A stretch of DNA of 64,000 bases from Oegoconia quadripuncta. Lineage: Eukaryota > Arthropoda > Insecta > Lepidoptera > Autostichidae. The notes beneath the pieces are model-generated. The model did no database searches, was not told where the DNA came from, and saw nothing but the letters and a program-made list of their open reading frames with translations. The position numbers were made by a program, and so were the translations under genes. This document shows positions 5,665-53,910 of the stretch, in pieces; the stretch's first letter is position 1; every line of letters begins with the position of its first letter. Location: the NCBI GenBank assembly GCA_949316235.1, contig OX438751.1, positions 16,988,801 through 17,052,800 on the forward strand, read 5' to 3'.

Positions 5665-6112
5665 TAGGCACGGCTGTGCCCCCACCAAGTCGAGCAAAAA
5701 AGCCGTACCATCCTTTTCTCGAAGCAATTCAGACCATTTTCGACCCCCTGTAACTTCGTTGTGTATAAAAATAGAAGACTGAAATTTTCAGTAACTATGC
5801 AGGCATTGTAAAGACACGTATATTTCAAATTTCATTCAATTTGAACCAGTATTTTTAAGAATTATAACGGGTCAAATTTCTTAATTTTGTCACTCACTGA
5901 CTCACCGATCATCAAAATTCTAAGGCACTTCTAGCCATGGACTTATTATTTAAACAGGACTGATAACTATCAAAAGAATCATTTAGGAAAATGATCACTA
6001 TGTCAACGCAATAAGGTATTAAATTGGATGCACCATACACAAAGGCAAATCCGAGCCGAGAGAGATAGAAATAACGGAGGCCGTGTGTCTCGTTCTTACA
6101 TCTTGCCAGCAA
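5665..6112 (+). repeat. CACGGC repeat, copy 1
   Basis: Starts with GGCACGGCTGTGCCCCCACC, a short self-complementary block, followed by AAGTCGAGC and CGTACCATCCTTT. A second copy is at 62042. Later it shares GATCATCAAAAT with that copy, and TGGACTTATTATTTAAACAG (reversed) with 7570-7610. No superfamily assigned. Confidence 0.7.
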
Positions 6113-6245
6113 AAAAAATGATTATGATCAACAGTTTTGGCTACTCAAAAATTCCATTGAAACACTTATATTTTTGTTATTTTAACAATTATAAATAAAT
6201 AAATAACATTCGCATTAATTTCTTTTCATATATTCTTAAATTTCA

Positions 6246-7045
6246 TTCAGCTCTGCAGCGTATGCAGTCAAAAAAATTAGACAAATATCGGACGTAAATA
6301 CTGCTAGATTAGTATATTTTAGTTATTTCCATAGCCTGATGTCTTACGGTATCTTGCTGTGGGGAAATGCCGCGGATATCAATACAATCTTTGTTTTACA
6401 AAAACGAGCCGTTCGCGCAATTTATCAATTGAGACCTGCAGTGTCACTTAGAGACAGATTTAAAGAGTATAATATTCTAACCTTTTCGTCACAGTACATT
6501 TTTGAAAATCTAATATATGTCAAAAAAAATATAGCATCATTTAGGAAAAATAGTGATAAACATGATGTCAATACAAGAAATAAAGATAAACTTGCAGGTC
6601 ACATAAGTCGCCTCCACAAGGTCAGTAATTCATTCAAAGGGTTATGTATACGCTTTTTCAATAAAGTTCCTGTTGATATACAAAATCTTCCTTTCAATAA
6701 ATTTAAAGATACTATAAAACAGAAACTTATTAAGAAAGCATATTATAAAATATCAGATTATTTAGATGATAAACAATCATGGACATAACCAGCCCGTTCG
6801 CATAACCAGGCTATTTCTCAATTAATAATGAAATATTATAATATAAAATAATAATTTTGTAATATAAAAACCTTTTTTTAAAAGAGCGACCTCTCGAGTT
6901 TCTTGCTTGTTCTTCTCAGGGGAAAATTGCCTTTTGAACAAGCAGTAGCTTTAAAAATGTAAAATCTGACTATTTTAAGTGTACCCTGTGTACCTACAAA
7001 ATAAAGCATTTTTTGATTTTGATTTTTTGATTTTTTGAAATCAAA
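6246..7045 (+). mobile_element. LINE-J, 5'-truncated reverse-transcriptase C-terminus with 3' UTR
   Basis: Non-LTR retrotransposon fragment. The frame is open from about 6246 (SAAYAVKKIRQIS) to the stop at 6786-6788 and contains MSYGILLWGNAADIN, LQKRAVRAIYQL and IRFFNKVPVDIQNLP, the C-terminal part of CR1/Jockey-type polymerases after the catalytic domain. The 3' UTR has GTTCTTCTCAGGGGAAAATT, AATAAA and a TTTTGATTTTTTGATTTTT tail. The endonuclease and most of the RT are missing, so it is a dead 5'-truncated insert. A reversed sister copy is at 8737-9440. Confidence 0.92.
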
Positions 7046-7197
7046 CAGAAAACATACATTTTTATTTCGATTTTGTTATTTTTATGGTAACCCTGAAAAG
7101 CATGTCATGTCATGGCGGTTCGGTGTGATTTTGAATTTTCTTTGCATTAAAAGTTTTTTAAAGTATTTGTTATATTATAACAAGTAAAAGGAGTAAA

Positions 7198-7440
7198 ATG
7201 GTGAAAAAGTGTTGCGTTTATACTTGCCCAAGTGAATCCTATGGTGGTTGCAACATATCTTTCCACAGGTAAGCTAAAAATAATATTTTTGTAAATCAAA
7301 GAAGTAGGATGCCCATGAATTCTTGAAATGAGTCGAAATATGTGAAATATGTGTGATTGATTAGGGTCCTGACTGTTGCAGTTTCCCAAAAAATGAAGAA
7401 ATGCGAAATAAATGGCTCACGCCGGCTAATGTCAAAACGC
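7198..7440 (+). pseudogene. THAP zinc-finger gene, N-terminal exons only
   Basis: Exon 1 (7198-7268) encodes MVKKCCVYTCPSESYGGCNI and ends in a GTAAGC donor. Exon 2 starts at 7382 after TGTTGCAG, in phase, and gives SFPKNEEMRNKWL. The spaced cysteines (residues 5/6 and 10), the SFHSFP segment and the Trp match the first half of a C2CH THAP DNA-binding finger. The second half, which should bring the Cys-x2-His pair and AVPTIF-like end, is absent: after about 7440 the sequence turns into a repeat also seen at 5912-6112. I read it as a THAP gene broken by insertion; a distant exon cannot be excluded. Confidence 0.7.
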
Positions 7441-7740
7441 CAAAGTTTTTTGACAAATATTTTATTACAACATTTGTCCTAAGTAACAAATATATTGTGG
7501 TCACCCTGTTAGACAGAGACAAACGGCCTCTACGTTACACATCCTGCTCGGCTCGTTTTTCAGCGGCGAGTACTCAGTCCTGTTTAAATAATAAGTCCAT
7601 GCTTCTAGCAGACCTAGAAGCTTCAAATTTGGAATATAAGTAGTGTTTGGTGTATGAATCAAGGAAAAACTAAAAAATCTAGAAAAGACAGCAAAGAAAA
7701 TTAAGCCCATACAGCCAAGTCTTCAGTTAATTAAATTTTT
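7441..7740. repeat. Repeat insertion related to the CACGGC element
   Basis: CAGTCCTGTTTAAATAATAA and a preceding CTCGGCTCG segment match the minus strand of 5912-6112. It separates the THAP fragment from the basic frame at 7764, so it is a plausible cause of the gene break. Confidence 0.55.
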
Positions 7741-7763
7741 CAATATTGGCTTTATTCGTAACG

Positions 7764-8040
7764 ATGTTTTATTATTTTACGGCAAAAATTGTAACATCAA
7801 AGCCTCCCAGAAAAACCCATAGAGACAGGGAGTGGGCTCTTAGAAAAACTGTAGCTGAAGCTCAAGAAGTAGTACCGGAAAAGAGAAAACGGAAGGCTAC
7901 CTACAAAAATAAGAAAAGTTCATAAGTCAGAGAGAGGGCTTTAAGAAAATTCGTTTCTGGTAGATATACATATATACAATAAGTAGAAGGTACCGAAAAG
8001 GAAAAAAGTAGAACTGTCTACAAAATACAAAAAGAAATGA
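7764..8040 (+). pseudogene. Lys/Arg-rich coding remnant with a duplicated unit
   Basis: An ATG frame (7764-7925, 53 residues) contains HRDREWALRKTVAEAQEVVP and EKRKRKATYKNKK. It is followed by a second, degraded version of the same unit of roughly 115 bp (GAGGGCTTTAAGAAAATTCG ... ACCGAAAAGGAAAAAAGTAG ... CTACAAAATACAAAAAGAA). The codon pattern looks like a real protein with basic, coiled repeats, now broken by stops. It could be the C-terminal half of the THAP gene upstream (inference), as many THAP proteins have basic linkers. I do not recognise the domain. Confidence 0.45.
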
Positions 8041-8041
8041 G

Positions 8042-8736
8042 ATCCCATCAAAAACAATACTTGTCAAAAAAACCAAGTCTCGCAACTCAGTTGTTCTGCG
8101 GTAAAAAGTTGTGAGATCCATGTAATACCAAGTCGGTTGTTAATTTATTCAGTCTCTACTTAAGCGACTTTCTGTCTTAATACGTCCAGTCTCTAAGACC
8201 ACGATCGTGGTCCATAACAATTGAAAATCAATTGTGTCTGGAATCTCCGTACTCGAAGCATTAAGTTGTTACGTAATAATTAACAGCATCTTATAGTGAC
8301 GCATATCAATATTAAAATTCTTTAATGTTTTATATAAATATATTGAGACTTGGCCATCGCCTGAAAAGACGTGTAAATTCAATCGCCTGAAAACACATGT
8401 AAATTCAATAATTTAGTGCGATGGCCAAGTCTCGATATATTTATATAAAACATTAAAGAATTTTAATATTGATATGCGTCACTATAAGATGCTGTTAATT
8501 ATTACGTAACAACTTAATGCTTCGAGTACGGAGATTCCAGACACAATTGATTTTCAATTGTTATGGACCACGATCGTGGTCTTAGAGACTGGACGTATTA
8601 AGACAGAAAGTCGCTTAAGTAGAGACTGAATAAATTAACAACCGACTTGGTATTACATGGATCTCACAACTTTTTACCGCAGAACAACTGAGTTGCGAGA
8701 CTTGGTTTTTTTGACAAGTATTGTTTTTGATGGGAT
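8042..8736. repeat. 319-bp near-perfect inverted repeat with 57-bp spacer
   Basis: Left arm 8042-8360 and right arm 8418-8736 are reverse complements; by eye I find one difference in 319 positions (near 8345/8433). The spacer holds a 26-bp sequence twice (CCTGAAAAGACGTGTAAATT and CCTGAAAACACATGTAAATT). Each arm also contains the perfect palindrome GACCACGATCGTGGTC and a nearby ACAATTGA/TCAATTGT pair. The right arm ends inside the 3' UTR of a reversed LINE; the left arm continues from the basic coding remnant. There are no TIR/TSD signs of a standard transposon at the outer ends. Confidence 0.95.
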
Positions 8737-9440
8737 ATTTCATTATTAATCGTGAAATAGCCTGGCATGCGAACAATCTCATTATGTCCAGGGATGATTA
8801 TCATCTAAATAGTCTGATATTTTATAATATGCTTTGTTAATAAGTTTCTGTTTTATAGTATCTTTAAATTTATCAAGTGGAAGATTTTGTATATTAACTG
8901 GGACCTTATTGAAAAAGCGTATACATAACCCTTTGAATGAATTACTGACTTTGCGGAGGCGACTTATGTGACCTGCAAGTTTATCTTTATTTCTTGTATT
9001 GACATCATGTTTATCACTATTTTTCCTAAATGATGCTATATTTTTTTTGACATACATTAGATTTTCAAAATTGTACTGTGACGAAAAGGTTAGAATGTTA
9101 TACACTTTAAATCTATCTCTAAGTGACACTGCAGGTTTCAATTGATAAATTGCGCGAACGGCTCGTTTTTGTAAAACAAAGATTGTATTTATATCCGCGG
9201 CATTTCCCCACAGTAAGATACTGTAAGACATCAAGCTGTGGAAATAACTAAAATATACTAATCTAGCAGTATTTACGTCTGACATTTGTCGAATTTTTTT
9301 GACTGCGTACGCTGCAGAGCCGAGCCTTTTCGCCAATTTATGTATATGAGGACCCCATTGCATTTTGGCGTCTAAAGTAATGCCCAAAAATACAGTAGAA
9401 TCTACGAGAGTATGGTTGATTGTTCTACACAAATACATTT
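8737..9440 (-). mobile_element. LINE-J, reversed truncated copy
   Basis: Open frame 9438-8782 on the minus strand, about 218 residues, nearly the same protein as the LINE at 6246: STVFLGITLDAKMQWGPHI, AAYAVKKIRQMSDVN, ILLWGNAADIN, RFFNKVPVNIQNLP. It is intact over this length but lacks the endonuclease and RT core. Its 3' UTR is cut at AATAATGAAA, where the inverted repeat starts; the normal tail is missing. Confidence 0.92.
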
Positions 9441-13088: not shown

Positions 13089-16000
13089 ATGTCGCGAAGG
13101 TCACGAGGCAGCCACGCATGGGAGGTGCGCGCCTCTGCGTTGGCTCGGAACACCCATAACTTGATCAGGAACATTGTTGATAACCTCCACGTTGAACCTA
13201 ACCCTGAAAAGCAGTTGATAGCCCTTTCTATAGGTGAGTTCTATTGTAATGTAGCATAAATCGTCACATAGAGTGGAAAACTGGCGCTCGTGGATCAAAA
13301 TAGGTAACTACAAGGTGTGTGTTCCGGAATTGTGTATATCTAGTTAAGTTATATAATTTCCTAAAGTGGTTTTATATTATACTTTGATGCACAGACTTGG
13401 GTAGGTACCTATTTAACTTTAATACAGTAGATATACACTCGTACTCAGTCTGCACGAGTGTTTTTTTCTGGATTTTTACTAAAAGAACTTTCGAATAACG
13501 TAACCGTTCCGATTTCATCTAAGTATTTTGAAAACGTAAATTCTCCATAATTCCAGATATATTTAAAACCCTAATTACCATCGATATTACAAAAAATCCC
13601 TTAACTATGATAATTTAAGACTCTTTTTTTTAATTAACTACCTCTTTACGACCCTGCTAACTTGGTTAATTCGACAAAAATTAAATGCGTGCTTTAAAAC
13701 GTTTTATAATAGACTTTTAGTGAGATGAACGATAATGAAGGTTACCGATTTGAAAGCGTAAAAGTAGATACGGACATTTGAAATTTAAATTCTCGAAAAT
13801 GCGTATTTAATTTTTTTTCTTATGAGTAGGTCGAAAATTGGTACGAATTTAGTAACATGGTACGTTAATTTCAGGTTTACTTTTACTGTTCAGATTTCTA
13901 AAACGATTTTATTACAACTTTTTTCTGAACGAAACGTGAGTGTTCAAGTGTATAAAACCCTAAAATCGACTCTATTTACTGGTAGAAAGTGTTCAATTTT
14001 ACTGCAGTCCATGACTGTGTGGCCCAAGATACATGTAACCAAACTCAGGTTGACACTTTCCATGACAAATACCTACCGACTTAGGTACTTGTACGTGTGT
14101 GTGTCCTATAATAAATATGGCTTAATAGGGTTATTGAAATAATAATTTCTACATGAAAAGTACTTTTAAAAACGAGCTTGCTCCATCATGATTATCACAT
14201 AATATTCTGGTACAAAGACGAGTAACATAAAGTTCATTAAACGGTTCCAGTGGCAATCTTTTGGCTCCATCTTCAGACCCTTTATATGTGTAATGGAAAG
14301 TGCTCATGACAACAACACAAACTAGAACAAATTCGACTACCTTGTCATTTGCGATCAGGGAGTTCCAGTCCCTATATCCCGGCTCCATCATCTGATCAGC
14401 TCTATGGTATCATAATATTACATTGTCATCGAACTTACATAAATATACCAAATTTTAGCTCAATCAGATGCCAGCAAGTGGTTGAAAATTGCTTTGCAAA
14501 TTTTGAAACGGACAACTTCTTTACATGCGAACATTGAAATCTAAGAAAAAGCTTGTAAAGAAAGAAAAATTAAACCCACATTACTTTTCAATATAGTCTC
14601 CTAACTAGAACTAACATTTCCATATCTTTGAAGAACAGCCGCTTGCACTTCTCATCACTGGTAATTAATCTGGTGAACTGTTGCACTCTTGCCTTTATCG
14701 GCGGCTTTTCTCCCTTATAGTGCCACTCCATAGACTCGCTTTTGCTTTCAGTATCATAATAAAGCATCATCGTTTCATCACCGGTAACCACACGATCAAT
14801 CGTTTGTTCAGGATTTTCGCCACACAGTTGTAAAAACGCAGTAACACACCGCACTCTTTCCTCTCTTTGAACAGCTGATAGAAGTTTGGACACCCATCTT
14901 GAGCTCACCGTGCTCATGTGAAGATGGTCGTGAATAGCACGATGAACGGTACCCTTAGAAAGCCCAAATCTAGCTGCAATCTCAACACCTCCTCCTCGAT
15001 AATGACTGCGGCGGTTAGGGGTTGTCTTAGGGCGTTAGCACCCGTTTAGCTGCCAGCAGGTAGGTAGTGAAAGAAAAGAATACCAATTGGATGGATATAG
15101 TGGGTTTATTGTACATCCAGCTCACTCCCCTGCACCCCTCGGCAAATCTCCCTGTACGGTCACTGGCCTGAAGGTCTTGGAGCTGCAGTGGACGTAGCCT
15201 TCGAGTCCTCTCGTAGGCGACGACGACGTAGATAGAAAACTGGATGAGCGGTTTTCGGGGGAGGGTAGATCTACCCCGAATGTCTCCCAGGTGCAGACCT
15301 GGATATCGACGCCGACAGATAGTCACTTAGGACCTTGATATTATATGAAGTATGCAAGCAAGTCGGCCTTCATGGCCAGCGTCTTCGACTGTCTCTCTTC
15401 CAAAACGTTCTTCACAGTGCCATAGAAAGGGGATAACTCGCCGCACACGACATTCAAAGTTTAATTTTAGCAGGGGAATGACCTTACTTGAAAAACATTT
15501 CCAAAAACTCTCTGTGCTACTAATAGGACTATTTAATTGGCTGTCGCTTTCAGACTAATAAGTGCAGGTGGATACAATTTTTATAGATTAGAATTAAAGA
15601 GTGGAAATTATAATACTACAGTCTAACAAGGCAACACGTTTAGAAATATATCAGGCCAAGTCATTATGGGACGGTCTATGTAGATATTGAAACAGGTGTC
15701 ACAGATGCGCATCATTACAGGGTCATTTACTGGCTCTCTCATAGGTACAAGGTCACACTGGAATGCAATAATGCTTGGCAGGAGAAATAAATAAGGAGGT
15801 GGTACCCCGCCACCTAGGCGACTTCCTAGCTAAGGGAAAGGGAAAGCCCCCTTCGGCAAATATACAGAAAACTGATTAAAATATTAAAGAAATCAATTAT
15901 GTATTTGGGATTTTGATTTCAAAATAGTCACGCATTCGAATCTCAAAAATCAGTACCCAGAGGTACCGAGCACTGGTTCTTCCACTCAGTAGATACCACT

Positions 16001-19000
16001 AGTAGGTAGGTGTACACGTACGCACCGACTGACATAGAAATAATAATCCTGCATATAACTACGCATTGGTTATGGTTAGTGTCTCCCATAAACACACTCA
16101 GTTTTTGTTTTTTAATTAAATTGCTAACAAACACAAATAAACCATAAATAACGAAGTGTCAAGTTAGGTACTGATGCCTTTTTTATTGTTTGTATTTGAA
16201 AATTAGCACTAATAATTGCACTTGCTTGTATCTTTGTGGATTAAATTGAATAAATTTAGTATGTCCTATTCTGAAGCCTACTTCAGGAGCTATTAATTTC
16301 GTATACGGTCATATTTGGCTCTCCTATTCTATTCATTGGGCACTAGGAAAATTTACCCGGCTATTGCCAACAAACAAACAAACTTGGCGTCATCACCCGT
16401 ATTGTCATCCGCATAGCGTAATAGTGAATTCTTCTCAGTCGCGACGTATTATTGATGGTTCAAGGTGCAAAATAGAGCCTTTGCGATGGGAAGGTTTGGG
16501 AGCGCAACGATCAGAATGTCACCATCATTTCGAGGTGCAATTACGATGAGCAGCTTGAGACTAATCTCGCCGCTAAACGTGACGAATTAATAACTTTTAA
16601 TTAACGGTATATCCTCTCGTGCCAAAACATTAGCGACCTTCAGGCACATCAGCGCAGAACTAAGTGACAAGCCGGTCGCATCGGTCGGAGACTCAGAGGA
16701 CAACATCATCGTACAATACAGGGTGTAACGGTTAAGTGTAGTCATATTTTAAGGGCTTGTTCTACCCATCAATACGAACAACTTTTACTATGGGGGCAAC
16801 TTCGAAATCGCGAAAAAAAAATCAGCTGTTTCATACATTGCATCGGGAGGTTATTGAAATTTTCTATGGAACAGCTCATTTTTTTTCGCGATTTCGAAGT
16901 TGCCCCCATAGTAAAAGTTGTTCGTATTGATGGGTAGAACAAGCCCTTAAAATATGACTACACTTAACCGTTACACCCTGTAGAACAGTAGATTTTTCGG
17001 ACACTAACACCAATTATCTAGTCCCAAACAAGGCAAAAGCCTGTACTAGGAATACTAGGTAACGGATAAACATTAATAAACATCCTTGACTCATGAATAA
17101 ATGTTGGTATACATCACAGGAACATTTATTTCTATATAGCGGGATTTCAAGTCAACTGCTAAACCCAATTGAAGCAAATGTCCAGGATAAACCTAAGCCT
17201 CCATTTCACGAATTTTATGGGCCGTCGCTGATACCGCTTCATGGACGGTACTCCTCAAGTAATGGCGATAGTACAGATAGTTCCAGTAGGTAATTAGACA
17301 TGTCGGTACAGTTACCCATTTCTAACAGGCATGCACGTCTTCCAACAATGCTTGGCATTCCATCAATCCGGCCAACTCACGTATGGATGACGATGGAAAA
17401 TGATCTCGCTGCATAGAGCTTTGCGTTGGTAAAGCAAATGTCGGGTATTGAGTGAGCGTTCACACCGCAATTGGCGGACTCTGGCAACAAGAGTTTTTAT
17501 AATAAATTGTTATTTTCTTTACTACTTAGGTACCTACCACTACTTATAGATAGGAAGAATTCTTGTTATGTAAGACTATATAAGATTAAAAATAGTTTGG
17601 TAAAATTCAGGTTCGCAATTATAATAAGTCAAGGTTAACGTGATTTCACAACGTTGTGCAACACACGAATCTAAGACAGGAACAAAATAGAGAAATTTGA
17701 TTATTTTTATTTTTACTTATTCGTACAGCTTGTGATATTTTTAAAATTTTGGAAAATTCTACGAAATCATCACCACCTCAGAATATGTTTGTTTTATTTA
17801 GTGTCTCTTTTTAGGCGATCCTACGACTTTTGGAAATCTGAATCCACCTGAACAAGTTCTTGAAGCGGTTCGCGAGAGTATCGAGTGGACCAAAAGTCGG
17901 AGCTATGGTCCAGCTGTGGGCCATTTGGAGGCGAGGAAGGCCGTCGCTGAGTACAGTGCGCATCAAGGGGAGGTTTCACCCGACGATGTCATCCTCTGCA
18001 GCGGCTGCTCTCACGCCATTGAAATGGTCGTCGCCGTGCTCGCAGATTCGGGTCAGAATGTACTCGTGCCGCGACCGGGGTTCATGATCTATAAAACCTT
18101 AGCTGAGGGCTTAGGAATTGAAATAAAATACTACAATTTGTTGGTAAGCTTATAATTCTTTTGTTGAAATAAAATCAAACAGTTATAATTTCCAGTCCCT
18201 ATTAATTAAACATACTCGTATGCACAAATTCAGTGGCTAGTACCTAGTCCGTGTTAACAGGTAAAAAATGGTGGCGAGCGTGTTGTAATATCATCGATGT
18301 TTTATGTGTATAATCAAAAAGTAAAGCAACATTGTAAAGCTAGTATGTGAGAACGAGGAGATACAAGTTTCTAGAATCATAACAAGTTTCCAGTTTGCTA
18401 TAGACTATATTTGCATATTGCTTATACGCACAATTTTCTTGTAACTACGCAAATGGTTGTGATTGTTATGATATGATTTAAGTGTAATTAATTAGTAATA
18501 CATGACTTATATAGAAACTAGAGCAATGTCTTCAGTAATAACTCGACTGGATTATCGTGATCCACATGACTTTGTGTAAAATTTTATAATTGGTAATCAA
18601 AATTGATGTGATGTCGAATAAAGAAATACCTGCGTGCTTCTTATACCTATAACCACAGAACAGCTATGCATATTATTCTTGCACAATTAGACTTTGGCCT
18701 GTGAACGAATTTATTTTTGGAATCAGTCACTTTACTTTGGCCTACTTTAGAAAAGGTTGACACATTTCTTTATCAATTGTAGTAAGAAATGTAAAACATT
18801 ATTCAATCTGTTCGTAATACGAGTACAAGGCTAGTATCCAAGAAATCATTGCTTCTTGCATTGAATACATAATTTACCTGTTATATACTCACGTTGTTGT
18901 AAACAAGCCCTTATTGTGCTTCACATTACTCCGGTAATATAAATTATAATTGGATATTACGTTATGGTAATAAACAACCCTGATCTTTTACAGCCTGATC

Positions 19001-22000
19001 AACAATGGAAAGTAGATCTTGAGGATCTGGAGAACCAAATAGATGACGATACAGCATTGATAGTGGTCATAAATCCTTCCAACCCGTGTGGTTCAGTTTA
19101 CAACAAAAAACATTTATATGAGATATTGGACATTGCTTCAAGAAATCGCGTGCCTATTTTAGCTGATGAAATATACGAACATTTCGTATTCTCTGGAAAT
19201 GAATTCACGGCTCTATCCTCCCTGTCTAAAGATGTTCCAATACTAACTTGCAGCGGACTCACCAAGAGATTTTTAGTACCTGGATGGCGTTTCGGATGGG
19301 TGATTGTCCATGACCGTAATAATATCTTAGGAAAGGAAGTTCGAAGGGGCTTAATGAATTTTGCAGGTAGAATTCTAGGACCCAACACTTTAATACAACG
19401 AGCGTTACCGGCGATATTACGAAACACACCGCAAAGTTTCTTCGATGAAGTAGTGTTGTTTATTGAGGTGAGTTTAATAATATCCGGTTTAGATTTATAC
19501 CTATATAAGTGTATTTCTTCCATGATATTTAGAATCAAAAACGGTATCCAGGCCAGCGTAGAGCTGGCGCTTACCTTGGTCAACACAACTCAACATCGTC
19601 AAGAATTGCCATTCAACGAGGTAATGCTGCAAGTATTCTGAGTATCCTCCCGATATTGAACACGTTTTCTATCTTGCCTAGATTTCGAGGTGGAATACAT
19701 GTTTTGGAGTCTGGTTGGATAGGTTTTCTCCATTTTTTCTAGTTATGTGTTATTTGTATATTTTGATTTTTGCTTAAAGAAGTACTTTATAACTGGAAAT
19801 AAAAAATTTTGAGAATACCCGAAAGACTAGATACAAAATAACATCCGTCGTTTTTCGTCGGAGGTTAATAAATGGAACTGTGTAGACAGACAGCTGTTTC
19901 CTTGCTTTCACAAATTTTTGTGCGTAGCCCCCGTAGCATGACATCGTTTGACGCGCGCGGCGCGACGTGATACCTAGTTGTATATTTCGTCTAAGCGAAT
20001 GAGTAGGACAAATATTATCTAGCGCGACATAAACGTTTATCGCGCCTGTCGCTGGTATCCCTAGATATTAAAGTATTATAAATATGTCGGAAACTTATAC
20101 TAATCATCTAACGTAAAGATTTACATAAACATCCATAACTCGGGAATAAATGTTCGTATTTATCATACAAACATTTACCCCTCGCGGGTATCGAACTCGC
20201 AACCGTTGGTCTCGCAGACAGGGTCACTGTCCACTACACCAATCGGTCGTCAAAAGATTTTCAATGTTAACTTTTTTTAAGAGACGCTTTATTCGTTTTT
20301 TTATTAACAATTTAGATTTATGATTTAGGTACCTATTTACAGATGTTACACTTTCATTTTATTTTTTTGTGAAAAACGTAGATACAGTACGACGAGTGTA
20401 CCGTACATGTAAGCTGTTCGCGCGACTCTAGTATAGTAATGCGAATTAACGCAGCGAAACCGGCTTGGAAGAGTTACACCGTATCACAGAATAATTAATA
20501 GTACTAAAGGTAGCCGTATTCATTACAAACGAAGTGGCATAAAATTAATTTCGTGACATTAATTTCACCTATAATTTCGCGTGTAAACGTACATACAATT
20601 CATGCATTAATTTCATGACACTGAATTAGTTTCGTACCTTGCGCATTACGGTCGTCACGACCGCGTGTACAATGATATCCAAGCCCATCTAAAGCTTAGT
20701 TTGTTTTCTCTTTTCAGAATCAAGCAAAATTGGCTTATGAGGAGTTGCGACACGCGCCTGGTTTGCGTCCTATCATGCCTCAGGGTGCCATGTACATGAT
20801 GGTTGAAATTAAAATGTCCTTCTTCCCGAAGTTTAAGAACGATCTTCAATTTGTTGAGCGTATGGTTTCTGAACAGTCGGTCTTCTGTTTACCTGGACAG
20901 GTTTGTAGTATTACAACAATTTTGTTTTTATATAGGTCTTTCATAACATATTTACGAGTTCCTTTTTAGGGTCCGCACCTCAAAAGGTAAAAAAGAACCA
21001 CTTTGTTGTCCGTCTATCTGTATGTAACCCGCAGGGCACAGTGTAGGTTCGTACCAACATCACCATTGACAAACTTATAATGCGGTGACATGAAAGATTT
21101 ATTAGCGTCGGTGAATCAGCAGTTAAGACGCGGTCTCCTAATTTGGGAGGTCCGGGTTCGATTCCCAGGCAGGCCATGTACCAATGAGTTTTAAATTTAA
21201 TTACTTATGTGCATTTATTCGACTGCTCTTAAACGGTGAAGGAAAACATCGTGAGGAAACCTGGATGCCTGAGAAATAAAAATTCTAAGGCATGTGAAGT
21301 TTCCAACCTGCATTGGGCTAAAGTGGTGGACTATGGCTCATACTCCCTCATTATACGAGGGAAGGCCTATATCCCTGCAATGGGATGTTTACGGGCTGAG
21401 ATGATATTTGTTGTTATTGATTTAGGTAGTTACTTATCTACTTGTGAAAAACCTATAACTTGGTCTAGGAATACCAAAGCAATCTATTCTCAGAGTTCAA
21501 ATGAAATGTGCATTATGTATATATGTATTATTCAGTTCCAGTTTTGACGACACTTTCGAACCACGTTTCTGTACAGAGTTACATGTATTTGATGCAATTT
21601 AAACCGTTCATTATGTACCACGGCTAAAATTCTATGGTTTTCGAGATATTAGTTCTATAATTAATTTCATTCGTGTAATTCCTGTTTACTGGTGGTGGTG
21701 GCTGGTGACTAGATGATAGATAAGATGGTGGTAGCTAGCCAGGCGGACATTTAAAATGCCCTACCACCAACCAAACCGAGTACTTAAACATATACCCCGC
21801 TGGGGATCGAACCCGCGACCTCCGAATCGTAAAAACCCAATGATGTTTACTTTGGGGGGGGGACGACGACTAAGATTCCTTGGGGAAAGTTCTTCGTAAT
21901 CAAGAGTGGCGTCACCAGATAGTGAGAATTACAAGAATTCAATACAGGATTAATGTAGGAAGTGCTTTTAATAGGAATTCAAAAGTGTTCGAAAAATTCC

Positions 22001-45300: not shown

Positions 45301-48300
45301 GAGTAATTTATAATTAATCTATTTTAAAGAAAGATAAACATCAAGTGTGATAAATGTAAGCCCACAAAATAAATCTCTATACTTTTATTCTCCAGATTTT
45401 CAAGCCCGTATTGGTAAAGTGATCCCAAGATTAGAATCAAACTTGAGTTGATCTAACTAATGCGAAAGTTTTGATGCTTATTTGTTTGTTGCTCATGCTC
45501 ACGGTTAAAAAGATGACCGGATTTGGATAAAATTTGGTACATAGGTAGAATATCCCTGGATTAAGACATAGGATATTTTTAATCCCGTTAAAGTGAGTAG
45601 TTCCCGCGGGATAAACAAATTAAATATATCGACGATAAAGTTAATCCACGTAGGCGAAGCCGCCGGTAGAAAACTAGTATTTGATATAGTGTTTTCGTAT
45701 GTTCAGATCGCTTTGTTAATATGGACTTTGGAATGAAAAATAGTGATGTCGGATCAATGTAAACAAAATAAGGTCAAAACGAAGCTCGGTACAGCGGGGT
45801 ACATATTTAGTACTCGGTTTGGTACAACTCTAGTCTCACAGAGAAATTAGAAATCATCCGGTTACTTACAATGTATACATACCTAACGTGGAACGACGTG
45901 CCAAAAGACTCATTGGTGACCATTCGATCACTGCTAAATTTGCTGAGCCTCGAACACCTTTAGTCTCTCAGTTTTTTACAGGATGCACTTCGGTGAGTGT
46001 GCGTTGGAATTAACAATCTTATTCCACAATCGCCATATCTTCGGACTACCTACTAGGCGCGGGAAGGGATTCCATCCGTATGTAGTTAACATACCGAACA
46101 TTCGCACTAAGCGGTTCCACTCTTCATTCATAATGCGAACAGCCAAGGCATGGAACTCCCTTCAGGCGTCAGTCTTTCCTGAATCCTGCAATCTTGGGAT
46201 CTTCAAGAGCAGAGTGAATAGGCATCTACTGAGATCGCGTGCTTCATCTTCGGCCACATCGTCACTTCCCATCAGGTGAGATTGTGACCAAACGCGTATC
46301 CAGTTAACATAAAAAAAAACAAATCAAATCAAAAAACCTAGGTATTAATTACCTATCTATGTCGTACAAGTTATCTAAAAAGAATTTCTTGAGTAATTTG
46401 GTGAATCTGCCTTCGTTGGACTCATTTCCAATGTGTACAGGCAAGATTGAGAAATAGATACAGGATTCTATCTCCATAATATTTAATTAGTCGAAGGACT
46501 TCGAGTTTACTTCTGACATGAATCTGATTTGCCTGACTATTATGGCTGTTGACAATAAGTAAATATATCTGTGTTTAACACTAACTGGAAGAATTTTTCA
46601 AATTTTGAGTAGCTTTCTAATTACCTTTTAACTCTTTTGTGTTTACAATTAATTACAAAAGTCTTATTAGCATGTAACTTGCATTTTATGCATGATATAA
46701 AAAAAAAGAGAGATGTCATGTCATGACGGATTTATTTCGTTAGTAGGGTCACTCGGCCCAGACCAATTTGCTATTGGAGATGTTTAACACTTACAGTGTT
46801 TTAAAAACCGGGGGCCTTGGCTTAGTAAAGCAGGGTCACGAGTAGGTACATGACTGCGCAAGAGTCCCGTAATAGGATAATCGCGGGCTCAAAATGACAT
46901 CTCATTGTTCGTCCGCGTTGGTCTCAGACAAGATGTCTCGTCATATCCTTTATAAATAACACTTATACACAATGTGTTTTTAACGTTAGTAATGTTTTGT
47001 AGGTTAGCGAATCCAATGCTTTATTTATATGGAAACGACTTAAGTACCTACTTGGTCGGGATAAAAAGTATTCTATGTTCTAATTCAAACAGCATAGTCT
47101 ACCTGTGTGCCAAATTTTATCCAATTTCATTCATCCGTTTCGCCGTGAGTGAGCAACTATCATCACACATACAAACTTTCGCTTTTTAATATTATGGTTG
47201 CAAGTTGTAGGTACTTTTTTTTTATGCACAACGGGTTAGCACTTTACCTCAATCATATCTGATGTTAAGTGAAGATGAAGCCTAAGGTGGAAGCATACTG
47301 ACCCGGAAACTCAAATATTTGGGGAACACAACAATGCTATTAACATTGCTGTTTGGCGGTAGATTTAGATAAGATGGTGGTAGCTAGCCAGGCGGACATT
47401 TAAAATGCCCTACCACCAGCACCAACCAAATAGAATACTAAACATGTACCCCGCTGGAGATCGAACCCGCTACCTCCGATCCGTAAACCCTATGTTGTTT
47501 ACATTGAGCCACGGAGGCGGTAAAGGATTGTATATGGATACATAGATAAGGCGACACATCAAATACATTATGATAATAATAATAAATATTACTTTATAGC
47601 ATAGCCTTGGTACACAGTAGGTACATCAGTAACAGTGATGTGTCATTCCAACGGAATCAACCCTCAGTTAGACCCCGAATTAGGTTTAAAGCTGTGGTAC
47701 GGATAGTAGGACTAAACTGCTACATGTCAGTTATGTAGACAAAGTATTACTGTGTGCTTACACACAACAATATTTTTTTTAAGGTTTACCAACAAAATTT
47801 TTACACCAAGACATGTTAATACACTAATGTTAATAGTTTGGCTATCTGTAAATGGTGCAAATTTAAAAATAAAAAAAAAAGAAAGGAAAATTAAAAGAAA
47901 TATAAAACCCTTTTTGTAATTTAAAAACCTCGCTTGTTCTTCTTAGGGGAAAATTGCTTAAAAAATTCACTATGTAGTGTCCCGTGTCCTAACTACGAAA
48001 TAAAGCATTTTTCACTTTGACTTTGCACACGAAATCTTGTTATCTTTCTTAAAAAGAAAATGTGTTTGTATCCCTAAGTCTTACTAACAGCTGATGTTAC
48101 TTAAAAGAAAAGAGTTGTACGACCAGCAAAATTGTCTTTCCCTTATGGAAATTGTAGCATCCACGATGGCCCGTATTAATAAGTCGTTCTTGAGATTGAG
48201 ATCGCGTCTCAGTCTCAAGACCATTTTTTCTGATGCTATTTTAATATGCAACAGATTCTCAAGCGTCAACTTGAGGCCACGTCAATCTTGAGAACGGTTT

Positions 48301-51300: not shown

Positions 51301-53910
51301 TTATTATGTTTTATTTGTTAAATAAAAAGTTCTTAGAATTCGGTTCCATGTTCTGCGAAAAAAGAATAGGAAAGCAATAGTGCGTCGACCGTCGACCAAC
51401 AGCAAGAAACGGCAACGAATGGCAATTTAAACAAATTGGTCACACAGCTGTGAAAACGTAGCCGAAGAGTATTAGTATTTTAAAAAATTGCCAAAAAAAT
51501 ACTTAGTCGATTGTTCAGCATACCTATAATGCTGCGAAACCGTCGGGAATTTTGCCGGTTGTCAGCAAAAACTTAGTGAATAGAGTCTTATCTACACTAC
51601 AACATGCACCTATTTTTTTCTGAAGTAAATAAAATGACCTCCGATGTGAAACTAGCAAAGTGTAGTCTGTACGTCAGTAGAATTTGAAAACCATCTTGTA
51701 TTAAAATATGTATTTTTCACTTAAAATTATTTTACAATTTTTCACGCAAATTAGTTTCAGGTCTACAATCCACAACAGCTTTGTTGAAGATTTGCAAGGT
51801 TCCCTTATAATTATCGCATTAATATTTCCACTAATACCTATCCTTGTGTTGTTTACTTATGTATTATGGATTTTTTTTTCGTTTTTCGGTATTGGCTAAG
51901 GTTAATTGGCACCTCTACTGTGCAGTAACAATACCCAATAAGTACAAAATTATATACTTTTAGAACTAATCAATCATTGTAATAGTTTCCGCCTTTCATT
52001 TATTTCGCTGCACCAACTTTCAAGGACTTGTCATTTATCCAATAAAAAACTGTTTTGTACAGTAGGTTAGTAATTAGGTAGAGTCGGCTCCATAATTAAA
52101 CGGAGGGCTAGTGTCTTAGCTATTTATGATGTACCATACCGCTACCTCCGTGGCTCAATGTAAACAACATAGGGTTCACGAATCGGAGGTCGCGGGTTCG
52201 ATCCCCAGCGGGGTACATGTTTAGTACTCGATTTGGTTGGTGGTAGGGCATTTTAAATGTCCGCCTGGCTAGCTACCACCATCTTATCTAAATCTGCCGC
52301 CAAGCAGCAATGTTAATAGTAGTTGTTGTATTCCGGTTGTCAGAGATAAGATAGCCAGTCCCCCAAATGTGTTGGGGTTTCCAGGTCAGTACGCTTCCAC
52401 CTTCGATCTCATCTTCACTTAATCAGGTGTGATTGAGGCCAAGTAGCAATTTCGATGATATCATAGATTCTAGGTATATTTGATAGAAATCGTGTAAGGG
52501 TTTCGAAGATAGATATTTAGCTTTTAACATAGCTACTTACTTACTGAGGTTTGCTGCAAGAGATCTCTTATAGAGACAAGCTCGCCTTTTGTATATTTTT
52601 TAATATGTCCTGTTTTTTTTTCGTTTAATATAATATGCTTGTATGCATAAAGTGTTAAATAAATAAATAGCTGGTTTGGTCTATTTAGATTATATAATCA
52701 TTTGTGTTCTCGGGGATTTTCTAAATGTTTCAAGTTATAGTTATAAGTTTATAACTAAGAAATGGTGGTAGTAGTGGTGAGATAATCGAGATCGATATGT
52801 ATAAAAAAATGTATAATCTCTGTATGACTTCTTTTTCGTAACATTTTTATCAACTTGCAGTTATTAGAGGATCTAACAAATTATCCCAAGACACTATTCA
52901 AAAAAGTATAATGTTGCTAAAAATCCAATAGTCCAGTAAAATACGTAATTTTTGTGGTGTAACTTCATTAAACCTTAAAGGTCCTAATTTTTTGTAGAAA
53001 ACATACATACGTACTCTACCCATCAGTAATAGAATAAAAAATTTCTAACTATTCTGTTGTTTCTTTAGGTATAGTATAGGTATTTAGTTATGAAACCTAC
53101 AATATTAAATTAACACGTAAACTGCCGCGACGCAGACACACTTGAAAATCAATTGTTTTCCGGCTTAAAGTTACGACTGTGAACTTCGATCTCCTAACAA
53201 TTTGTCTAAATAATTAAGCAATGCCTACTTTATATATTTTTTAAATAGTTTATGAAGTTGTGATGCCCTCGATGAAATTTTTCATTATTATATAGAAATT
53301 ATTGAAGATTTTTTTTGAAAATAGTTACAGGAGTTGTAAGTATACTCTGCAACGCTATGAAATTAAGAGTGGTAATTTTAATCTAATATTCTAATCTTCA
53401 ATGCTCAGGTTGCCTGGAAGAGATCTCTTCAAGAGATAAGTCCACCTTTGTACATGATCTATTGTTTGTACTCTGTTATATGTAATTTTTTGGTGCATTA
53501 GAGAATATATTTTATTATTAAATATCTATGTTATATCTAAAGCAAGCTACCGATTTGTTATAAAACATTTTAATTCTACTACTGCCAGGTACTCTATCCA
53601 TGTGCAAAAAATTATTAACTTTAAGATGATAGGAAGTAAAAATCGTTCGCTTACTGGACTATTTCAACTTTTCGATAATGAGGTTATTTTTCACATTTCC
53701 GGGTACATAAATAACTTATACGGGTATGTATCTATAAAAGATTAATGTTTTTACGTATATGTACTGACTAGTTGTCGGTGCTCGTTTGTGGCGGTGCTGC
53801 GTGTCGTGCAGTTGTTTAAAGGTACCATTGATGCGGTGCAGAGCCACGTCGTGGGGAGAGTTGAACACCCGACCGCCCAACCCGAGGTTGTCCAACAGAT
53901 GCTCGAAACC
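39351..53910 (-). CDS. ZIP zinc transporter, LIV-1 subfamily (last three coding exons)
   Basis: SLC39 family metal importer. Minus-strand exons 53910-53769, 43065-42865 and 40267-39351 join in phase (0; 1 base over; 1 base over) to 419 residues, ending at the TAA at 39353. Exons 1-2 are extracellular (FEHLLDNLGLGG, LCYTPKEILKVYG, FLEMCPALVYQLDQRSC), like the ectodomain of ZIP4/ZIP12-type members. Exon 3 holds eight membrane segments, a His-rich loop (GGHSHSHDHS), the metal-site helix HNLTDGLAIGAAFS and the LIV-1 signature CHELPHELGDFAVLL, with TAGTFLYIALADLVPE after it. Family motif HExPHExGD is intact. The signal peptide and first exon(s) were not found up to 64000. Introns are 2.6 kb (with a mariner) and 10.7 kb. 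Confidence 0.92.
40283..40395. repeat. Common repeat related to LINE coding DNA
   Basis: AGATGTCCACTGTTGGACAA, AGGCCTCCCCCCAAAATTTC and GGTCCTACGCTGCCCGCATA match a motif frequent in insect LINEs; a diverged relative is at 54160-54200. It lies just inside the ZIP intron. Confidence 0.6.
41095..41240 (-). mobile_element. MITE-E fragment
   Basis: Reverse complement of the left half of 44639-44970: TCAAGTTAGGTTTATTAATC, CACAAGACTGATCTCAATC and the end GGTTTATTAATACGGGCC. TTA follows it. Left end missing. Confidence 0.85.
41260..42572 (-). mobile_element. mariner transposon, full length, damaged transposase
   Basis: 1313 bp between TA dinucleotides (41258-41259 and 42573-42574), with inverted ends sharing CACTCAGAAAATTTTGCGAA. 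The transposase reads on the minus strand from MDLHREHYRAMILYDFKCHL (42399): helix-turn-helix, then TGDESWIYQYD (first Asp), LLHHDNAPAHTAL (second) and YSPDLAPCDFFLF (third, D34D spacing). It is broken by an in-frame TGA near 42290 and by a frameshift between about 41710 and 41560 where the 240-codon frame passes to the 108-codon one. All three catalytic acids remain. Inserted in ZIP intron. Confidence 0.95.
43066..43869. other. ZIP long intron, first part
   Basis: Contains an inverted pair, GGTAATGGACTTCATT near 43394 and GATGAAGTCATTACCAT near 43479, about 100 bp across; perhaps a tiny MITE. Otherwise nothing. Confidence 0.4.
43870..43985 (-). mobile_element. LINE 3' end, reversed
   Basis: TTTATTGCACAAGAAATACA, AAAGGTGAGCTTATCTCTAA and AGAGATCTCTTCCACCCAAC; same signature as 24985-25115. 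Confidence 0.75.
43986..44451. other. ZIP long intron, no feature
   Basis: 44160-44225 has a worn repeat (TCACCTGATGGAAAGTGACG). Nothing else recognised. Confidence 0.4.
44452..45017 (+). mobile_element. SINE-B split by a MITE
   Basis: Head and body 44452-44638 (B-box GGGGTCGAATCCC, GTATGATGAATACGAACA, GTATCCATAGCACAAGC) are followed, after the inserted MITE-E at 44639-44970, by the rest of the tail TTTGGGACTAGATGATTGGT and GTAAGTGTCCGAAATATTTA. Confidence 0.88.
44639..44970. mobile_element. MITE-E, complete copy
   Basis: 332 bp with inverted ends GGCCCGTATTAATAAACCA and its complement. Flanked by CTA and TTA, compatible with a 3-bp TTA duplication (PIF/Harbinger-like, tentative). Inside, CTCAAG or CTTGAG occurs about ten times. 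No coding capacity. Confidence 0.9.
45044..45114. mobile_element. Very short palindromic element
   Basis: 71 bp with ends TTAACACTTTCGCGGAC and GTCCGTGAAAGTGTTAA. A partial relative is at 49195-49225 (CACTGTCCTCGAAAGTGTTA). Confidence 0.7.
45470..45690 (+). repeat. Common insect interspersed repeat
   Basis: ATTTGGATAAAATTTGGTAC, TAGTTCCCGCGGGATAAACA and CCACGTAGGCGAAGCCGCCG, a layout widespread in Lepidoptera (from memory). Class not assigned. Confidence 0.6.
45865..46330 (+). mobile_element. LINE C-terminal relic
   Basis: VERRAKRLIGDHSITAKF (about 45890-45945) and, after a frameshift, FHPYVVNIPNIRTKRFHSSF, MRTAKAWNSLQASVFPESCN and KSRVNRHLL. It ends in an A-rich tail with AAATCAAATC. 5' truncated, frameshifted. 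Confidence 0.85.
46331..47213. other. ZIP long intron; common repeat at its end
   Basis: 47100-47205 carries CCAAATTTTATCCAATTTCA, CCGTTTCGCCGTGAGTGAG and ACTTTCGCTTTTTAATATTA, a frequent insect repeat end; a relative is at 57790-57910. Nothing else. Confidence 0.5.
47214..47521 (-). mobile_element. SINE-A, reversed, nearly full length
   Basis: T-run 47214-47223, GGGTTAGCACTTTACCTCAA, TGGAAGCATACTGACCCGG, AGCTAGCCAGGCGGACATTT and the head ending GAGCCACGGAGGCGG. A small internal deletion near 47325. Confidence 0.9.
47522..47915. other. ZIP long intron, no feature
   Basis: AT-rich, nothing recognised. Confidence 0.4.
47920..48025 (+). mobile_element. LINE-J 3' end
   Basis: ACCTCGCTTGTTCTTCTTAG, GGGGAAAATTGCTT and AATAAAGCATTTTTCACTTT; matches the end of the LINE at 6246-7045. 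Confidence 0.75.
48168..48313. mobile_element. MITE-E, short copy
   Basis: 146 bp, ends GGCCCGTATTAATAA and TTTATTAATACGGGCC. Inside TCTCAAGACC, TCTCAAGCGTCAACTTGAGG and ATCTTGAGAAC repeat the family motif. No clear 3-bp duplication. Confidence 0.88.
48314..50340. other. ZIP long intron, no gene seen
   Basis: 48725-48870 holds a worn LINE-like 3' end (GAAGAGATCGCTTTTAGGGA, reversed). 49195-49225 echoes the element at 45044. Otherwise nothing recognised over 2 kb. Confidence 0.4.
50341..50430. mobile_element. Fragment of the MITE at 54849
   Basis: GATCTCCGCTTGAGGACAGT, AGGGACAGCTTTATGTAAGT and TATAGCGGCATTCCTTTCT align with 54880-54950. No terminal repeats. Confidence 0.75.
50431..52137. other. 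ZIP long intron, no gene seen
   Basis: AT-rich; frames of 60-80 codons have no recognisable motifs. Confidence 0.4.
52138..52450 (+). mobile_element. SINE-A, full-length reference copy
   Basis: tRNA-like head with CTCCGTGGCTCAATGTAAAC (A-box region) and GCGGGTTCGATCCCC (B-box, 52193-52207), body GGGCATTTTAAATGTCCGCC, AGATAAGATAGCCAGTCCCC, TCAGTACGCTTCCACCTTCG and end AATCAGGTGTGATTGAGG. About 313 bp; the A-tail is lost here. Transcribed by RNA polymerase III by analogy with other tRNA-headed SINEs. Confidence 0.92.
52540..52670 (+). mobile_element. LINE 3' end
   Basis: TTACTGAGGTTTGCTGCAAG, AGATCTCTTATAGAGACAAG and GCATAAAGTGTTAAATAAAT; sister of 37990-38150. Confidence 0.78.
52671..53768. 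other. ZIP long intron, end nearest the 5' exon
   Basis: 53385-53520 is another LINE 3' end in plus orientation (CAATGCTCAGGTTGCCTGGA, AGAGATCTCTTCAAGAGATA). The rest shows nothing. Confidence 0.5.

Follow-up and report, generated by a model that had tools for sequence, protein, structure and literature searches.

The inverted repeat at 8042-8736 of the window, the 64,000-nucleotide stretch of Oegoconia quadripuncta DNA that was analysed, is best explained as the 3′ end of a non-autonomous Helitron that has recently been amplified. According to this joint explanation, which we regard as very probable, the element is moved by a RepHel protein, ends in a long hairpin, and owes the near-identity of its two arms to their pairing with each other.

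Structure of the inverted repeat

Comparison of the arms placed the proximal arm of the 3′-terminal repeat at 8042-8360 and the distal arm at 8418-8736, each 319 nt long, with a loop of 57 nt at 8361-8417 between them (all on the plus strand). The earlier note on this DNA had described two 319-bp arms with one mismatch and with nested palindromes, and both descriptions hold: the single mismatch, T versus C, lies at arm position 303, and the palindrome GACCACGATCGTGGTC occurs in the proximal as well as the distal arm. At the loop there is a 26-bp tandem duplication (8356-8381 and 8382-8407, plus strand), which is a single unit in some copies. When the 695-nt stretch was folded as RNA, a free energy of -579 kcal/mol was obtained, and the mean of 20 shuffles was -138 (sd 7). 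A search of the window against Rfam at gathering thresholds gave 0 matches to known RNA families.

Because a transcript through this stretch would form a near-perfect 319-bp duplex, the structure might owe its preservation to hairpin RNA and siRNA made from it, for host silencing or for regulation of the element. We consider this unlikely, as the position of the repeat at the 3′ end of a transposon and the spacing of the motifs within it, both described below, fit a role in transposition without siRNA.

Genomic distribution and extent of the element

The sequence of the arm end was compared with the genome, which comprised 622 Mb in 45 contigs. The 31-mer gave 574 forward and 571 reverse matches with up to 3 mismatches, and the reversed control gave 0; as each repeat has two arm ends, the total of 1,145 suggests roughly 570 repeats. 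When exact matches only were paired on contig C1, 56 of the 73 arm ends formed 28 inverted pairs, and the span was an identical 691 bp in 20 of the pairs. Assemblers are known to have trouble with long, nearly perfect palindromes, which speaks for reading the repeat as an assembly artefact, or else as one local inverted duplication. The number of arm ends in the assembled genome, the inverted pairs of constant span on C1, and the existence of a second family with another arm sequence and the same architecture make such a reading extremely improbable, and the artefact that the earlier note had entertained is thus disfavoured.

In the 21 copies listed, the sequence on the proximal-arm side was conserved and that on the distal side differed from copy to copy. 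The upstream conservation covered 440 bp in most copies and then jumped to the segment at 5667-5935 in the window. The complete unit was found in 13 of 15 regions, and consisted of ATCTGGGGGCACGGCCGTGCCCCCACCAAGTCGAGC at the left, a body of about 715 bp and the inverted repeat ending in TTGATGGGAT; the 5′ end of these 13 copies is ATCTGGGGGCACGGCCGTGCCCCCACCAAGTC. This set excludes L049, in which the distal dinucleotide is AA and not AT, and L053, which is the window's own place. With the AT ends included, ten copies measured 1,384-1,411 bp, and three copies with a different middle measured 1,676-1,700 bp. The layout of the element is therefore A/TC followed by a 22-nt palindrome and CCAAGTC, a body of about 0.7 kb, and the 319-bp inverted repeat ending in GGGA/T, where the slash marks the element boundary. 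The inverted repeat belongs to a young, abundant, dispersed element of about 1.41 kb, so that the repeat at 8042-8736, previously taken as a unit, is real, but takes in no more than the 3′ half of the actual element. The statement of the earlier note that the arms are not a recognised transposon is wrong, as they belong to the 3′ end of a Helitron.

These limits also bear on the possibility that the repeat is an independent fold-back element, or a MITE derived from a cut-and-paste transposon, that has terminal inverted repeats of 319 bp and a 2-bp AT duplication. The near-perfect arms with little between them, and the AT at both ends, are what such an element would present. However, the copies compared keep the proximal side and vary only on the distal side, the true left end has another sequence, and the coding relative that was found encodes RepHel; a cut-and-paste MITE would have inverted repeats at each end of the moving unit together with a duplicated target, a combination not present here. 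This candidate, to which we give a very small probability, was dropped because one flank is conserved and the other variable.

The age of the family was judged from the body, in which 27 of 7,837 sites carried a substitution relative to the majority in 11 copies, most of them picked by a perfect arm match. This agrees with the earlier suggestion that the structure is young. A perfect arm match had been the criterion for some of the copies sampled, and since this applies to most of those compared here, the divergence of arms versus body is unusable as a test.

The window copy and its nested insertion

The Helitron copy of the window extends from 5667 to 8736 and is interrupted by a P-element-like insertion of 1,666 bp. 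The 5′ part (5667-5935, plus strand) matches at 95-96% the segment that adjoins the counterpart of 7602-8041 in most other copies compared, and the body, which separates the nested insertion from the inverted repeat (7602-8041, plus strand), is about 99% identical over 440 bp to most other copies compared; a variant has a different middle. The subterminal CCAAGTC motif at 5685-5691 (plus strand) has its counterpart 26 nt from the 5′ end in L041. About 7 bp at the extreme 5′ end are absent from the window copy and its terminal palindrome is accordingly truncated, so this copy is probably a poor donor. The distal arm ends in TTGATGGGA/T, which is the true 3′ end, as the flanks beyond it vary among copies; similarity to a LINE-like copy at 6836-6672 starts at 8735. 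The window copy itself showed no identifiable coding capacity.

The nested insertion (5936-7601, plus strand) has perfect terminal inverted repeats of 28 bp starting with CATGGACTT, and contains a LINE-like 3′ piece with the ORF 6339-6788 and a THAP-coding remnant (Pfam PF05485, E 2.9e-8, for a peptide spliced by eye), because of which we read it as P-element-like. It is flanked by an 8-bp target duplication, CTTCTAGC, with the left copy at 5928-5935 and the right copy at 7602-7609 (both plus strand).

Insertion site

At the distal end, AT was found in 20 of the 21 copies listed and AA in one. Empty sites were sought by joining the flanks of 14 copies (13 short, one RepHel) with a single AT and matching them against the copy regions. 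Clear paralogous empty sites were obtained for 2 of the 14, one RepHel copy and L047, with no duplication longer than AT. For the RepHel copy, the seven empty-site sequences listed belong to a dispersed repeat that spans the junction, and have AT in six cases and AC in one, with small gaps nearby in two; for L047, a neighbouring duplicate is empty and has one AT. The joined flanks of L042 aligned to copies of a repeat, most of which, among those listed, lack 4 nt next to the site; those of L044 matched only themselves and weak sites. The other 10 joined flanks had no spanning match among those listed. Judged by sequence, insertion is into AT, and an undivided duplication of AT would look identical. 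The repeat in which the RepHel element is inserted appears by eye to be SINE-like and is abundant, with copies at L043:2614-2791 and, in the window, at 52145-52317 and 47339-47522.

A RepHel-encoding relative of 8.4 kb

Pfam Helitron_like_N was found at three places in the genome. On C1 and on C11 the domain is part of an open frame of 2,069 codons, and these two loci show 100% identity over the 3,543 bp compared in both. The third, L054 on C12, is a broken RepHel with stops inside the match, and looks by eye like a canonical Helitron type. The frame on C1 encodes, in order, OTU, DUF6570, Helitron_like_N and PIF1 domains. In an alignment of 20 sequences, the query included, the two HUH histidines were present in all 19 sequences without a gap at these sites, and the two Y2 tyrosines in all 16. 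Among PDB entries, the family profile matched Helraiser best (7lcc, E 2.3e-44), with the helicase part as the best stretch and other PIF1-type helicases close behind.

The element that carries this frame is 8,437 bp long, AT ends included, starts with ATCGGTGGGCACGGCAGTGCCCCCGCCATGTCGAGC and ends with GGTGGGAT. Its 5′ limit was set by 29 of 45 matches (self excluded) that start exactly at L059:260, with 7 more starting at 252-259, and its 3′ limit, L060:1936, by comparison with the C11 copy. At the 3′ end there is an inverted repeat of 225 bp with 48 nt between the arms, which differ by 1 mismatch in 224 when a chance flanking base is left out. The 8.4-kb relative is putatively autonomous and apparently intact.

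A deletion derivative of this element, L061, aligned with it at 97%, 90% and 99% over 906, 1,085 and 459 columns, and retains the inverted repeat at its 3′ end, there with a longer loop (arms of 204 nt separated by 221 nt; the coordinates give about 180 nt between full arms). When 40 of 4,189 first-look candidates were scored for RepHel-type arms, the second arm was also present at 36 of the 38 places with a proximal arm, C1 and C11 aside, among the matches listed.

Of 7,490 candidate proteins, 40 were matches at E 1e-10. They include sequences from Argiope (72% over 57% of the query), from Diaphorina (56% over 63%), from Chrysoperla (51% over 98%) and from Parnassius (95% over 32%). No RepHel relative was confirmed in the viral contigs or in the bacterial and archaeal genome contigs.

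Motifs and likeness shared by the two families

CCAAGTC occurs three times in each arm. In the proximal arm of the window the outer (8073-8079, plus), middle (8128-8134, plus) and inner (8347-8353, minus) motifs start at arm positions 32, 87 and 306; in the distal arm the inner (8425-8431, plus) and middle (8644-8650, minus) motifs were placed from the near-identical copy L041 together with the window sequence, as was the outer motif (8699-8705, minus), which lies 32 nt from the 3′ end, likewise in the RepHel element. The corresponding positions in the 225-bp arm are 32, 94 and 148, with the orientations in the same order, and three motifs per arm were matched by 0 of 5,000 dinucleotide shuffles of either arm type. 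At the 5′ end, CCAAGTC stands at position 26 in L041 and CCATGTC at position 26 of the RepHel element, and L061 also has CCAAGTC near its 5′ end. We read CCAAGTC as a candidate RepHel-binding site.

The short and RepHel families are 71% alike over the first 140 bp or so and 81% over about 59 bp where the proximal arm begins. When whole arms were aligned between the families, the score was 0.745, and 200 shuffled controls had a mean of 0.682 and a maximum of 0.742. Since this score is barely above the controls, common ancestry of the inner arms is not supported, and the likeness consists of the outer part and the motifs. With ends that are only 71% and 81% alike, mobilisation in trans by this particular RepHel can be proposed only conditionally, and a closer donor may have been lost. 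The very long hairpin seems to be built into both Helitron families, rather than being an oddity of the window locus.

Exchange between the arms

The arm changes were counted in 20 copies, each from a different place and each with two full arms and 25 bp of flanking sequence on either side. Seven distinct changes were shared by the two arms of a copy; five of these were private, and the other two were each found in the same set of five copies. Changes in one arm amounted to 23 observations, 21 of them distinct. At arm position 303, the pair T/C was found in 17 copies, T/T in two (L048 and L033) and the swapped pair C/T in one (L049). The orientation of the 57-nt loop was readable in 19 of the 20 copies, L039 being left out; it was standard in 18 and inverted relative to the body in L049, which combines the inverted loop with the swapped arm mismatch and with distal AA instead of AT. 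One further symmetric difference was found between the RepHel element and its derivative L061.

The symmetric changes and the inverted loop of L049 indicate that the arms exchange sequence, and to this extent they support the earlier proposal that the arms are kept alike by gene conversion. Such exchange could take place on the chromosomal copy or in an intermediate of transposition. The one-arm changes show that the arms are not completely homogenised, and two of the seven symmetric changes may be single subfamily events.

The low number of substitutions in the body and the 23 one-arm observations would also fit arms that are alike only through the youth of the family, with no homogenisation. 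We hold this to be quite improbable, because youth accounts neither for seven distinct changes present in both arms nor for an inverted loop, which is a sign of arm exchange. Moreover, two families with largely different arms are each nearly perfectly self-complementary, which the youth of one family cannot explain. Selection for a perfect arm in some of the copies would lower the number of changes seen, but creates no symmetric ones.

Comparison with known Helitrons

The 8.4-kb relative carries the RepHel that characterises the Helitron superfamily, with HUH, two tyrosines and a PIF1-type helicase. Canonical 3′ palindromes are given in the literature as 16-20 bp (PMC6544945), and lepidopteran Hel-2 elements as having a 3′ hairpin and CTAG (PMC4344730). 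The families described here resemble Helitron1 and Helraiser (PMC4778049) in the HUH/Y2 RepHel with PIF1-type helicase, the 5′ TC, the A/T insertion and the 3′ hairpin, and differ in having no CTRR, in the OTU and DUF6570 domains in the frame and in the 5′-terminal palindrome. In addition, the 3′ hairpin of 225-319 bp reaches the terminus, whereas the palindrome of Helitron1 has 16-20 bp and lies about 11 nt before the end. In both families the 3′ end is GGGA/T; a CTRR 3′ end and a short hairpin before the 3′ end were both absent, and for these reasons the element is not a canonical Helitron.

Helitron2 is described as having hairpins at both ends and asymmetric repeats of 8-15 bp (PMC3627910), and FoHeli as having inverted repeats of 12-16 bp (PMC5148889). 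The likeness to these two consists of hairpins at both ends, here a 22-nt 5′ palindrome and a long 3′ inverted repeat, and of an inverted motif common to both ends (ACCAAGTCGAGC at the 5′ end and GCGAGACTTGGT near the 3′ end). Unlike in the accounts of Helitron2 and FoHeli, the motif stands here behind the 5′ palindrome and inside the arm of the 3′ hairpin, 26 and 32 nt from the ends; the repeats of those elements are given as 8-16 bp, and the target of Chlamydomonas Helitron2 lies after TTTT, versus AT here.

Helentrons are reported to have OTU proteases, an endonuclease and TT targets (PMC4067079). The OTU-type protease that Helentron/DINE-1 elements sometimes carry, their subterminal inverted repeats and their abundant non-coding derivatives are all found again here, but the target is AT and not TT, and the short 3′ stem loop is lacking. 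No Pfam match to a C-terminal AP-type endonuclease was found at E 0.05 in the last 465 aa of RepHel. The assignment as a Helitron, by the RepHel relative and the insertion, is well supported, and the element fits neither Helitron1, nor Helitron2 (because of the motif placement), nor Helentron. In a search of openly available papers by their titles and the beginnings of their abstracts, none was recognised that deals with an inverted repeat of hundreds of bp at the 3′ end of a Helitron.

A possible role of the 3′ hairpin

Our proposal is that the RepHel of the relative would move the short elements in trans, recognising the 5′ end by its palindrome and CCAAGTC and the 3′ end as a hairpin studded with CCAAGTC. 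One strand would be peeled off in the 5′ to 3′ direction, and the 3′ inverted repeat would then fold into the long hairpin. This hairpin would act as the stop signal for transposition, in the manner of the 19-bp hairpin of Helraiser, which according to PMC4778049 is a terminator that is not strictly required and whose loss raises read-through. While the element is single-stranded, the arms may pair and repair or copy each other, by which they would stay alike. More speculatively, the paired 3′-OH could prime second-strand synthesis. From this analysis we infer for the 3′ hairpin the role of a terminator and perhaps that of a self-primer.

In hairpins of the parvovirus type the folded-back 3′ end primes the second strand, and the hairpin interior occurs flipped and unflipped. 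The likeness to the present element lies in the fold-back 3′ end and the flipped loop forms and is an analogy only, for there are no capsid genes and no linear virus genome here. In a stronger form of the proposal, which we think doubtful, the Helitron would have a parvovirus-like end, at which the snapped-back 3′-OH primes the whole second strand, and repair of the stem homogenises the arms and sometimes flips the loop. If this is true, such Helitrons would move via a hairpin-capped intermediate, and not only via a circle.

How Helitrons end a round of transposition and make the single strand duplex is only partly known. The long 3′ repeats, the matching motifs in two families, the exchange between arms and an intact-looking RepHel together offer a natural system in which the role of a 3′ hairpin can be tested. 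The Helitron reading also accounts for a class of long palindromes that might otherwise be taken for siRNA loci or assembly errors.

Lone 5′ ends and other features of the window

The 30-mer of the left end gave 1,566 matches, more than the number explained by the 3′ ends, and for 6 of the 45 exact left ends on C1 a range of 4 kb contained no exact 3′ end. Two of the 6, L057 and L058, were compared, and had only 42 bp and 88 bp, respectively, in common with the element, which would fit truncated or read-through transposition. In L057:1-3031 and L058:1-3031 unrelated DNA follows the lone 5′ end, and in L057 an EGF-like exon was seen by eye, possibly captured or belonging to a host gene.

Elsewhere in the window, the C-terminal part of a LINE-like ORF was assigned by eye in two copies, at 8782-9438 (minus strand) and 6339-6788 (plus strand), neither of which had a Pfam match; the short Helitron sits just behind the minus-strand copy. 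The ORF at 14588-14917 (minus strand) looks by eye like a fragment of a mariner-type transposase, with no Pfam match at E 0.01. An aminotransferase class I/II coding stretch lies at 18964-19641 on the plus strand (Pfam PF00155, E 1.6e-31).
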